Shown here: piece by piece, positions 37 through 2,197 of the stretch | Numbering within the stretch: position 1 is the stretch's first letter | Layout: each line of letters begins with the position of its first letter | From: Candidatus Bathyarchaeota archaeon | GTDB taxonomy: Archaea; Thermoproteota; Bathyarchaeia; TCS64 | Assembly: GCA_030593155.1 (NCBI GenBank) | Contig: JAUVHT010000013.1 | Span: 1 to 11,151 of the forward strand | DNA length: 11,151 bases | Reading direction: 5' to 3' | Notes under the pieces: model-generated | The model's input: only the letters and a program-made list of their open reading frames with translations | Told to the model about the DNA's origin: nothing | Databases searched by the model: none | Position numbers and translations under genes: made by a program

Positions 37-426
37 CTACGGTCTCGACCCTTCGTCCTTCTTCTGCTGGTATCTCCTGTACCACGTCTCCACGGTCTCG
101 GCGTTGACGTAGTTCCTGTGGTGCCTGAAGCCCCCCTTGAAGCCGTGGGGGATGTGGAGGAGCTCGTGGATCAGGGTCCTGTCTTGATCGTCGTATGTGA
201 GTTTGTCAAACCTCTCCGCGATGATCTCGATGACGTACGATGGCTCCAAGCCCACAGCCTGCCAGATCCTGCTCCGCCCGTGGATCCGGGCTATGGTCCT
301 CTTCGCCTGGGAGCCCCTGCTCCTGACGCAGTGGAGGTTCTCGAGGTTGACGTGCTCGAACCGGAGAAGGTTGATGATATGATCCACACGCTCCTTGATA
401 TCGGGCGCGGGAAAGTACTCGATCAT
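37..426 (-). CDS. Small putative zinc metallopeptidase (COG4900-like)
   Basis: The 129-residue product carries a clear HExxH zinc-protease signature, HELLH at residues 87-91 (zinc-binding His87 and His91, catalytic Glu88). It is followed by a glycine-rich segment and a His-His pair at 102-103 that could give the third ligand. The central part (33-60) has the Cys, Arg-Ser-x-Gly-Ser and Ala-Arg-Ile pattern I associate with small predicted archaeal metallopeptidases of the COG4900 type, whose substrate is unknown. There is no signal peptide or membrane segment, so it is probably cytoplasmic. The ATG at 426 has a GGTGAG Shine-Dalgarno-like motif 2 nt upstream and a possible TATA element (CCTAAAAACA, minus strand) about 40 nt upstream. 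It is divergent from the transporter-like gene starting at 522, with about 95 bp between starts. The family assignment rests on the motif and length only. Confidence 0.75.
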   Translation of the reverse strand: MIEYFPAPDIKERVDHIINLLRFEHVNLENLHCVRSRGSQAKRTIARIHGRSRIWQAVGLEPSYVIEIIAERFDKLTYDDQDRTLIHELLHIPHGFKGGFRHHRNYVNAETVETWYRRYQQKKDEGSRP

Positions 427-490: not shown

Positions 491-502
491 AATCTTAAAA
501 GG
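491..502 (+). promoter_or_regulatory. Archaeal TATA-box candidate for the S-component operon
   Basis: AATCTTAAAAGG is an A/T-rich box centred near 497 in otherwise GC-rich DNA. The usual archaeal spacing of about 25 nt puts the transcript start at about 522-525, on top of the ATG at 522. A leaderless first gene is therefore likely, and the ATG at 507 would fall outside the transcript. Confidence 0.5.
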
Positions 503-523
503 ATGGATGGATGATCCATCCAT
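503..523 (+). promoter_or_regulatory. Perfect 21-nt palindrome, candidate operator
   Basis: Two exact 10-nt arms (left arm ATGGATGGAT) flank a single central G at 513. The repeat fills the space between the TATA box and the ATG at 522, where a bound repressor would block the archaeal polymerase. It could instead form a very tight RNA stem, but a 1-nt loop cannot close, so a dimeric protein site is more plausible. The wHTH gene two cistrons downstream is an obvious candidate ligand; that link is inference. Confidence 0.55.
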
Positions 524-1088
524 GCGAGCGGTGGATTTGGTAGCTCTGAACCAGACGAAGAGGATCAGCATCATCGTCGTGATGGCGGCTGCCTGCATCG
601 GCAGCAACTACGCCATGCTGGGCGTCATCAACGTGAAGTTCATGGACGTCTTGGTCTTCATCACGGGTCTCGCCTTCGGGAGCAGAATGGGGATGGCTGT
701 TGGCTTCCTCTCGTGGGCGATCTACGGCCTGATAAACCCCTACGGCTTCGTGTTGCCTATACTGGTCGCAACCGCGACCATGGAATCTGTGTATGGCCTC
801 GTAGGCGGGCTTATAGGGCGAGAAAGCAGAAGCGTGATCCACGGGAACTCGATAGTCGCCGGAGTTCAGTATGCCATTGTAGGGCTGGTTTTGACCCTTG
901 TATACGATCTAGTCACGAACGTTGTCTTCGCTGTCACCTTCGGCATTAACCTGAGTGTCGCACTGATTGGAGGGATTCCCTTCACTATGGTCCATGCACT
1001 CTCAAACATGGGTCTCTTCTTCGTCGGAGTCCTACCCGCTATCAAAGGGATACACCGCTTGATGCCGGAGTTGAATGTAAATGTCTGA
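522..1088 (+). CDS. ECF-type transporter S component-like membrane protein
   Basis: This is a hydrophobic protein of 188 residues from the ATG at 522 (193 from the ATG at 507). About six membrane segments can be read: the IIVVMAAACIGS region near the start, two around LVFITGLAFG and GMAVGFLSWAIYGL, one at ILVATAT..YGLVGGLIG, and two in the C-terminal third. The size, segment number, alanine-rich first helix and the NPYG turn after helix 3 fit S components (substrate-binding subunits) of energy-coupling-factor vitamin transporters. S components need an ECF ATPase pair and T subunit, none of which lies in this window. The stop overlaps the next start by 8 nt, so co-translation with the DUF4430 protein is likely. 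Substrate is not readable from the sequence; the neighbour suggests a corrinoid-like ligand. The start at 522 is preferred because it fits the TATA spacing. Confidence 0.72.
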   Translation: MRAVDLVALNQTKRISIIVVMAAACIGSNYAMLGVINVKFMDVLVFITGLAFGSRMGMAVGFLSWAIYGLINPYGFVLPILVATATMESVYGLVGGLIGRESRSVIHGNSIVAGVQYAIVGLVLTLVYDLVTNVVFAVTFGINLSVALIGGIPFTMVHALSNMGLFFVGVLPAIKGIHRLMPELNVNV

Positions 1089-1560
1089 AAGAAATAGTAT
1101 CTGGATGTGGGCCTCGGCGGCCCTGTTATGCACCACGATCTTAGCGGGCTACATGGCCCTGAACTCGCAGAGCAAGCTCGCAGGCCTGCAGGCTGACTAT
1201 GACGCCCTCATGGAGGGGGTTGAGTCGATGCAGGGGAGCCTCGATGACCTCACGATACTCATAGATATGAGGATCGACTACGGCGAGGAGAACATAGTCT
1301 GGTACAACTCCACCCGGGTCCCCTTGAACGCTAAGCTCCTAGAGGCCACCGAGATTATAGCGCCCGTGGACTACACCCTCGGCGATTACGGCGCTATCGT
1401 TAATGAGATCGGCGAAGTCAGCGGAGACGAAGGCTTCTTCTGGCTCTGGTACACCTACGAGGAAGGCGGCTGGCAGCTGGGGATGGCTGGCGCCGACACA
1501 AGGAGCCTAAAAGATGGAGACATCGTAGCTTGGGAGTACACGAACGTGTTCCCTTTTTAA
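1081..1560 (+). CDS. Membrane-anchored DUF4430 (transcobalamin C-terminal-like) protein
   Basis: The 159-residue product has an N-terminal hydrophobic anchor (about 8-27, with Cys17 but no clear lipobox). A short heptad-like stretch rich in Leu, Gln and Glu (about 28-58) follows, and then a compact domain (about 58-159). That domain shows the DUF4430 pattern: a tryptophan before Asn-Ser-Thr (W74), a leading amphipathic helix, a conserved Gly-Tyr-type strand ending in FFWLWYTYEEGGW (119-131), a GAD turn, and a final L-K-D-G-D-I-V-A-W-E-Y strand (143-153). DUF4430 resembles the C-terminal domain of transcobalamin and intrinsic factor, which contacts cobalamin. The domain should lie outside the membrane as a capture or presentation module. 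Its 8-nt overlap with the S component and a GGAG motif 10 nt before the ATG argue for co-translation. The alpha-barrel half of transcobalamin is absent. Confidence 0.75.
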   Translation: MSERNSIWMWASAALLCTTILAGYMALNSQSKLAGLQADYDALMEGVESMQGSLDDLTILIDMRIDYGEENIVWYNSTRVPLNAKLLEATEIIAPVDYTLGDYGAIVNEIGEVSGDEGFFWLWYTYEEGGWQLGMAGADTRSLKDGDIVAWEYTNVFPF

Positions 1561-1585
1561 CGTGAATGGAGAAATCTGTACTCGA

Positions 1586-2197
1586 ATGGAACCCCTAAGC
1601 GTACTAAGGCAGGTGGTGGCGAAGCTCGCCCCGGGGAGGCCCCCAGCCTACTCCCTGGCCCACGCCCTCATGGGGCTGGAGCTGATAGGGACCGGTCTGG
1701 GAGTGGGCAGGCAGCAGCTGGCCAGGGAGCTGAGGCTCGGGGAGGGGACGATCAGGACCATGGTGAGCCGGATGAGGGGCCTGGGGCTGGTTAACGCCTC
1801 CCGAGGGGGGATGAGCCTCACGGAGAAGGGACGGAAGGTTCTGGCCGAGCTCGCCGATGTGATGTCGACGTCCGAGATCCCCGAGACATCCCTGACCGTC
1901 GGATCGGAGAACTACGCCGTCCTGGTCAAATGCGCCTCGGCGAAGGTCAGACTGGGCATCGAGCAGAGGGACTCGGCTCTCATATCGGGAGCCCTGGGGG
2001 CGACGACCCTGGTCTACGAAGGGGGAAATCTTCGCATGCCGGGGACGGCGGAGGATCTCGACCCCGAGACGAGTCAACTGGTCCTCGGCGACCTCGGTCC
2101 GGGGGAGGGGGATGTGATCATCATAGGCTCATCCGTCGACGCCTTCCTCGCAGAGCTGGGGGCCAAGGCGGCGGCCCTTGAGCTCCTCCAAGACTAA
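1586..2197 (+). CDS. Winged-helix protein resembling DUF4443, probable transcriptional regulator
   Basis: The product is about 203 residues from the ATG at 1586. A GTG at 1562, one base after the previous stop, would add eight residues. Counted from the GTG, residues 45-95 form a winged helix-turn-helix: LGVGRQQLARELRLGEGTIR is the helix-turn-helix, then MVSRMRGLGLV and a wing ending in LTEKGRKVL. The C-terminal half (about 105-211) is a glycine-rich alpha/beta domain with Gly-Ala-Leu-Gly-Ala and DVIIIGSS stretches that could sense a ligand. The arrangement matches archaeal DUF4443 proteins, whose function is not established as far as I know. Position as the last gene of the S-component/DUF4430 run suggests a local ligand-responsive regulator, and the palindrome at 503-523 is its most natural target. 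No strong ribosome-binding site decides the start; GGAG at 1568-1571 lies 14 nt before the ATG. Confidence 0.65.
   Translation: MEPLSVLRQVVAKLAPGRPPAYSLAHALMGLELIGTGLGVGRQQLARELRLGEGTIRTMVSRMRGLGLVNASRGGMSLTEKGRKVLAELADVMSTSEIPETSLTVGSENYAVLVKCASAKVRLGIEQRDSALISGALGATTLVYEGGNLRMPGTAEDLDPETSQLVLGDLGPGEGDVIIIGSSVDAFLAELGAKAAALELLQD

Follow-up and report, generated by a model that had tools for sequence, protein, structure and literature searches.

We analysed an 11,151-nucleotide stretch of DNA from Candidatus Bathyarchaeota archaeon (GenBank assembly GCA_030593155.1, contig JAUVHT010000013.1; hereafter the window, meaning the whole of this stretch), in which three adjacent genes encode an S component of the energy-coupling factor (ECF) type, a membrane-tethered DUF4430 protein and a winged helix-turn-helix (wHTH) protein with a DUF4443 domain. 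We consider it very likely that this unit is an uptake operon for a cobamide (a vitamin B12-type corrinoid), served by a shared EcfA/EcfT module and repressed by the DUF4443 protein at a palindrome. As a cobamide uptake operon it has an archaeal layout that is new, while its parts are of kinds already known. The initial annotation of the window had proposed much of this: a six-segment S component overlapping an anchored DUF4430 protein by 8 nucleotides (nt), a wHTH regulator a few bases further on, a corrinoid-like ligand, and reliance on a shared energising module.

In the mechanism that we envisage, the tethered beta domain (in effect a stand-alone C-terminal half of transcobalamin) would sit outside the membrane on a helical stalk, where it would catch the cobamide and deliver it to the CbrT-like S component, which in turn would be energised by the cell's shared EcfA/EcfT module. 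In some relatives, capture may be shared with a transcobalamin-like protein that possesses both an alpha barrel and a beta domain. When cobamide is plentiful, the DUF4443 wHTH protein would bind the promoter palindrome and repress the operon. We know of no ECF transporter for which direct hand-over from a tethered transcobalamin beta domain has been shown. Through the module, a fold known from the B12 carriers of animals becomes linked with archaeal vitamin transport of the ECF type. Its features in the window are as follows.

494..500, forward strand: TATA-like box CTTAAAA, three bases before the operator core (sequence)
503..523, no strand: candidate operator ATGGATGGATGATCCATCCAT, a palindrome except for its central base
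504-522, no strand: 19-bp operator core TGGWTGGATNATCCAWCCA, no mismatch
522..1088, forward strand: CbrT-like ECF S component (PF07155, E 2.8e-6; family profile to CbrT 6fnp_A, E 2.6e-9)
1081..1560, forward strand: membrane-tethered DUF4430 / transcobalamin beta-domain protein, overlapping the S gene by 8 nt (family alignment, predicted fold)
1096..1167, forward strand: N-terminal hydrophobic anchor, residues 6-29 (hydropathy; helix 4-57 in the model)
1249..1551, forward strand: transcobalamin beta-domain-like beta-grasp domain, residues 57-157, with a beta-hairpin insert after the helix (predicted structure)
1562..2197, forward strand: wHTH-DUF4443 regulator, candidate cobamide repressor (PF14544, E 1.5e-26)

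The three-gene unit and its proteins

All three genes lie in the window as first annotated, and the overlap of 8 nt between the first two is exact (ATGTCTGA). The nearest named relatives are Candidatus Bathyarchaeota metagenome-assembled genomes (MAGs), and our sample of relatives comprised 256 genomes in the class of one Bathyarchaeota MAG (G002), of which 126 have a DUF4430 profile match; one locus was examined in each of these 126, with flanks of 1.5-8 kb. The S gene stands directly upstream of the DUF4430 gene on the same strand in 117 of the 126 and directly downstream in 4; it is further off in 1 and was not seen in 3 (two of them at contig ends), and at the one remaining locus no DUF4430 open reading frame (ORF) was recovered. 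Given this adjacency and a median gap of -8 nt (120 loci), the pairing is not due to chance. The wHTH gene is found within the fetched locus in 32 of the 126 genomes, downstream as in the window in 20, divergent and just upstream of S in 9, and otherwise placed in 3. The expected co-occurrence of S and DUF4430, and a gene order extending beyond a single genome, were thus both borne out. A profile search of named genomes with the middle protein returned 10 loci, of which eight archaeal ones (L001 to L008) have the window order. In the korarchaeal locus L009, DUF4430 is divergent from the wHTH gene and S was not seen, and the bacterial locus L010, an independent case from a 0.8-Mb genome, has the order B12-dependent ribonucleotide reductase, S, DUF4430, toroid protein. 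At L001:8516-9163 (-), a second, divergent S component lies inverted between the DUF4430 and wHTH genes, with a 1-mismatch copy of the operator at its start.

The S component gene may start at ATG 522 or at an alternative ATG at 507, inside the operator, and stops at 1088. Its product has the hydropathy of a polytopic membrane protein, although a simple plot gave no clear count of exactly six segments. PF07155 matches it just above the cut-off (27.9 bits versus 26.7) and PF12822 falls below (E 3.1e-5); among 48 family members (E <= 0.01), the two models match 35 and 41, respectively. When the family profile was compared with solved structures, CbrT (6fnp_A, E 2.6e-9) was the sole significant match, RibU having an E value of 3.4. 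These comparisons support identification of the window protein as a CbrT-type cobalamin S component, for which cobalamin binding is predicted. Like ECF-CbrT, the cobalamin/cobinamide ECF transporter of Lactobacillus delbrueckii (PDB 6FNP), it belongs to a system in which the ECF module would be supplied in common. However, the portions of the ECF-CbrT account drawn on here mention no tethered transcobalamin-type domain, whereas in the archaeal unit the S gene overlaps a gene for such a domain, with a wHTH gene next in line.

The DUF4430 protein has a single hydrophobic segment, at about residues 6-29 near its N terminus, in keeping with the membrane anchor first assigned to it. Its family assignment was less direct: the window protein itself falls below a match to PF14478 (DUF4430), although 13 of the 23 aligned sequences reach one, and it was the predicted fold that proved decisive. 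By structure model and PDB comparison, this fold is the beta-grasp of the transcobalamin beta domain, and it includes a beta-hairpin insert (helix 86-93, then strands 96-101 and 104-110) of the kind which, in the part of the literature used here, defines the transcobalamin-like clade of SLBB (PMC1796856). Fold and insert therefore agree on the proposed likeness to transcobalamin. W121 is invariant among 52 sequences, and Y67, W74, N76, I110, W131 and W151 are conserved in at least 90% of them, this being conservation across the family. The beta domains of transcobalamin, intrinsic factor and haptocorrin, and the bacterial DUF4430 protein 3U7Z, share the fold and the hairpin insert; the window protein differs from these in being a single beta domain with an N-terminal helix tether and no alpha barrel, and identity is 8-19%. 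The alpha/alpha barrel half of transcobalamin is absent from the window DUF4430 protein, as had been noted from the outset.

Corrinoid supply and the energising module

B12-binding domains occur in 252 of the 256 genomes and CbiD in only 49, which raises the question of how the other genomes obtain cobamides. CbiD was found in 3 of the 126 DUF4430-bearing genomes versus 46 of the 130 others (p 1.2e-12), CobS in 15 versus 72, and FecCD in 19 versus 72 (at E < 1e-20, a threshold of our own choosing; the cut-off of the family itself gives 117 genomes). As many as 107 genomes have DUF4430 without CbiD and without strong FecCD, and most of them, having no CobS, would depend on complete cobamides. 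All of these counts ignore kinship (no phylogenetic correction was applied), although runs of CbiD-bearing and DUF4430-bearing genomes alternate several times along the genome list, the meaning of whose order is not given. Since CobS is present in only 15 of the 126 DUF4430-bearing genomes, the ligand is likelier to be a complete cobamide than a precursor. For this archaeal class, then, the evidence points to corrinoids as ligand: CbrT homology, the transcobalamin fold, the complementarity with CbiD, CobS and FecCD, and the shared site described below all favour the corrinoid-like ligand initially suggested, with the emphasis shifted from precursors to complete cobamides. Of the genomes with none of CbiD, strong FecCD or DUF4430, 51 of 52 have a B12-binding match.

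EcfT is present in 240 of the 256 genomes, including 116 of the 126 with DUF4430, and lies beside an ABC-ATPase-type ORF that carries Walker A and LSGG motifs in all four loci inspected, in line with the reliance on a shared energising module that had been anticipated.

Bacterial SLBB operons with CbiO/CbiQ-like genes have been predicted to scavenge B12 or its precursors, and their hosts, according to the parts of that report used here, usually lack key B12 synthesis enzymes (Burroughs et al. 2007, PMC1796856). The window unit resembles these operons, as far as they are described there, in its predicted scavenging role and in the usual lack of such enzymes in the hosts; it differs in being archaeal, in its CbrT-like S component and in having no EcfT within the three genes, and its own regulator and operator set it further apart. 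For archaea, Burroughs et al. left room for a different metabolite; whether the transcobalamin-type domains of archaea serve B12 or another compound, a question dating from 2007, now becomes directly testable.

The palindrome and its candidate repressor

The palindrome behind the TATA-like box is a new finding and, judged from sequence, a candidate operator. We scanned 145 non-duplicate loci (1.09 Mb) for the core TGGWTGGATNATCCAWCCA, allowing up to 3 mismatches, and found 78 sites (47 exact) within 160 nt of an S start and 13 elsewhere; reversed and complemented control patterns gave 1 match each. Of the 13 sites elsewhere, 6 precede a tandem-DUF4430 or toroid gene that opens a longer operon (for 5 of these the fetched locus also contains S); another, with 3 mismatches, lies between the divergent DUF4443 and DUF4430 genes of korarchaeal L009. 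A TATA-like hexamer (from a lenient set of six, with no control) occurs within 14 nt upstream of 66 of the 78 aligned sites and within 28 nt of 73, a spacing at which a bound protein would occupy the transcription start. No Rfam family, the cobalamin riboswitch included, matched the window at gathering thresholds, and we found no description of this operator or its candidate DUF4443 repressor in the open-access literature.

Genome-wide scans, in which up to 2 mismatches were allowed, found the site in 72 of 80 DUF4430-bearing genomes (79 of the class plus korarchaeal G009; 4 sites with a reversed-pattern control) and, among 80 genomes selected because they lack DUF4430, in 66 (7 sites with the control). 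Among 75 sites listed from the latter, a gene for CbiD, CobS, FecCD or CbiQ (taken from partial listings of these genes) is no more than 3 kb away for 29 and no more than 8 kb away for 39, against 1.2 and 3.1 expected under uniform placement, with the proviso that related genomes are not independent. We also retrieved another 43 loci, surrounding sites that are not next to S, and scanned 39 genes in 23 of them. PF01497 (BtuF-like) proteins lie near sites in ten loci, and for three such proteins that were tested, one of them from L133 and two encoded beside sites, the NCBIfam BtuF model was among the best matches, though below its cut-off. Other B12-linked neighbours of sites encode CbiB (L162), a CobQ/CbiA-type protein together with glutamyl-tRNA reductase (L179), a ChlI-type chelatase (L188), CobD (L195; TIGR01140 above its cut-off, but hisC also above its own) and further S components (L166, L182, L183 and L186). 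In L175, an S component and then CobT (TIGR00303, above cut-off) stand near a site; these two genes (L175:6181-7903, -), under an exact operator, possibly include a transporter for a lower-ligand base or its riboside. In korarchaeal G009, sites front three genes, one exactly and two with 2 mismatches each:

L160:3974-6016 (-): NrdD, the B12-independent reductase; exact site, overlapping the gene start
L161:4258-4905 (-): corrinoid protein; 2 mismatches
L161:13310-14692 (-): MtaB; 2 mismatches

This is the logic to be expected if B12 controlled a B12-independent isozyme as well as corrinoid methyltransferases.

The wHTH protein carries DUF4443 (PF14544, E 1.5e-26) along with CggR_N and PH0730-like_N, and its relative in the PDB is PH0730 of Pyrococcus horikoshii (2p8t, E 6.2e-9), whose PDB entry labels it a hypothetical protein. 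Taken mechanically, the window's wHTH gene starts at GTG 1562, but the in-frame ATG at 1586 seems likelier from the N termini of orthologues; the distance from the DUF4430 gene, described as a few bases, holds from the GTG and would grow to about 25 nt from the ATG. Of 37 non-duplicate loci that hold a DUF4443 relative (four of them, L162, L176, L186 and L188, chosen by the operator), 32 have a site (at most 3 mismatches) no further than 1.5 kb from the start of that gene. Two arrangements recur: the operator either precedes an operon ended by DUF4443 or lies in a divergent promoter. In loci chosen by DUF4430 alone, a site is present in 29 of 33 with DUF4443 versus 59 of 99 without, so that much of the association belongs to the whole module; the two arrangements and the korarchaeal case weigh more for the pairing. 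That the module has its own regulator, as initially annotated, is supported by position only, and the DUF4443 protein is, again by position, the best candidate repressor for the palindrome. At L188:2500-4040 (+), HTH-DUF7839 and DUF4443 genes stand in tandem behind two operator copies, facing the ChlI-type chelatase gene.

We would give even chances to a broader proposal, in which DUF4443 proteins form an archaeal cobamide-sensing repressor family acting through TGGWTGGATNATCCAWCCA on a regulon in Bathyarchaeia and Korarchaeia, and the beta domain hands cobamide directly to S. Such a regulon would span the import of B12 by two routes, the synthesis and salvage of corrins, methyltransferases of the corrinoid type and the B12-independent ribonucleotide reductase. 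For the study of B12 control in archaea, the module provides a defined site together with a candidate repressor.

Alternative readings and related loci

Several observations weigh against a cobamide uptake operon controlled in this way. The best Pfam label of the window S component is that of a riboflavin transporter (PF07155), and the riboflavin marker RibH was found in only 5 of the 256 genomes, so that the need for riboflavin (imported or made otherwise) is general. The S component might then carry another vitamin, with DUF4430 as a general surface domain. We regard this as highly improbable, in that the profile search favours CbrT over RibU, the operator also marks B12 genes, and DUF4430 avoids CbiD, CobS and FecCD while the riboflavin need would be the same with and without DUF4430 (for which reason RibH does not tell the readings apart). 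Less probable still is that the unit scavenges a distinct tetrapyrrole or some other metabolite, a possibility that Burroughs et al. entertained for archaea; according to the parts of their report used here, a B12 synthesis pathway is often present in the archaea that carry such domains (PMC1796856), but within this class DUF4430 and CbiD hardly ever share a genome, and roughly half of the listed sites lie near corrinoid genes. Further difficulties for cobamide uptake are the 52 genomes without CbiD, strong FecCD and DUF4430, our choice of FecCD threshold and the lack of kinship correction, and the insignificant scores with which DUF4430 profiles reach 3u7z in the PDB. Moreover, G054, which has no DUF4430 match, has a same-type S gene with operator and DUF4443 at L186, so that S can exist without the tether. 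EcfT was not found in 10 of the 126 DUF4430-bearing genomes, G002 included, nor in the bacterial genome of L010 (G010). The S component may instead transport the same ligand without an ECF module, as reported, in the part of that work used here, for BtuM and some BioY proteins (PMC6072759). We think this unlikely, given the 116 DUF4430-bearing genomes with EcfT and its ABC-ATPase-type neighbours in all four loci inspected; genome gaps could account for some of the absences. G002 (CP070640) is a 1.5-Mb single chromosome with the three-gene module and no PF02361 (EcfT) match.

The operator evidence has weak points of its own. A site within 160 nt is missing for 48 of the 126 S ORFs, of which some are truncated or follow another gene of their operon and others are not so placed; 36 of the 75 listed sites are more than 8 kb from any listed B12 gene, the three PF01497 proteins tested fall below the cut-off of the BtuF model, and sites also stand beside genes without an evident B12 link (for DUF763, Fe-ADH_2, radical SAM, PfkB, PgpA, asparagine synthase-like and phosphoglycerate mutase-like proteins). 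It is conceivable, though we think it rather unlikely, that another regulator binds the palindrome and that DUF4443 senses something else or acts elsewhere. In G059 the gene immediately behind two operator copies is an unrelated one for an HTH-DUF7839 protein, only 32 of the 126 fetched loci (within their limited flanks) contain DUF4443, and the operator often occurs without it (59 of 99 loci), the excess with it (29 of 33) being moderate. Against this reading stand the placement of DUF4443 within 1.5 kb of the operator in 32 of 37 loci and in two gene arrangements, its presence beside a BtuF-like gene (G147) and behind the HTH-DUF7839 gene (G059), both loci having been chosen by the operator, and the korarchaeal L009 arrangement, in which it is divergent from DUF4430 across the 3-mismatch copy.

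An alpha/alpha-toroid protein family occurs in 12 of 130 compared loci, 11 of them with S. Two members were scanned in all: that at L148:2746-4905 has both toroid and DUF4430 above Pfam cut-offs, and that at L072:1397-3187 has the toroid above and DUF4430 below. The top PDB matches of a model of the L072 protein (pLDDT 71.7) were 14 transcobalamin-type structures, with 440-472 aligned columns; its domain arrangement is unreliable because global superposition was poor (rmsd about 23). A second toroid family is found in 12 loci and a PF01497 (BtuF-like) gene in 7, all of them with S. In L077 (6802-8616, -), L072, L080, L082 and L084, large proteins with repeated DUF4430-like domains are followed by a transcobalamin-like toroid gene, and then, in all of these except L084, by S and DUF4430; the repeated-DUF4430 protein of L077, the only one scanned, also contains PKD domains. 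Finally, a PF18894 "phage metallopeptidase"-like gene lies at 37-426 (-) of the window, divergent from S; the family recurs in 8 of the 130 compared loci, and a relative also stands beside S in L002.
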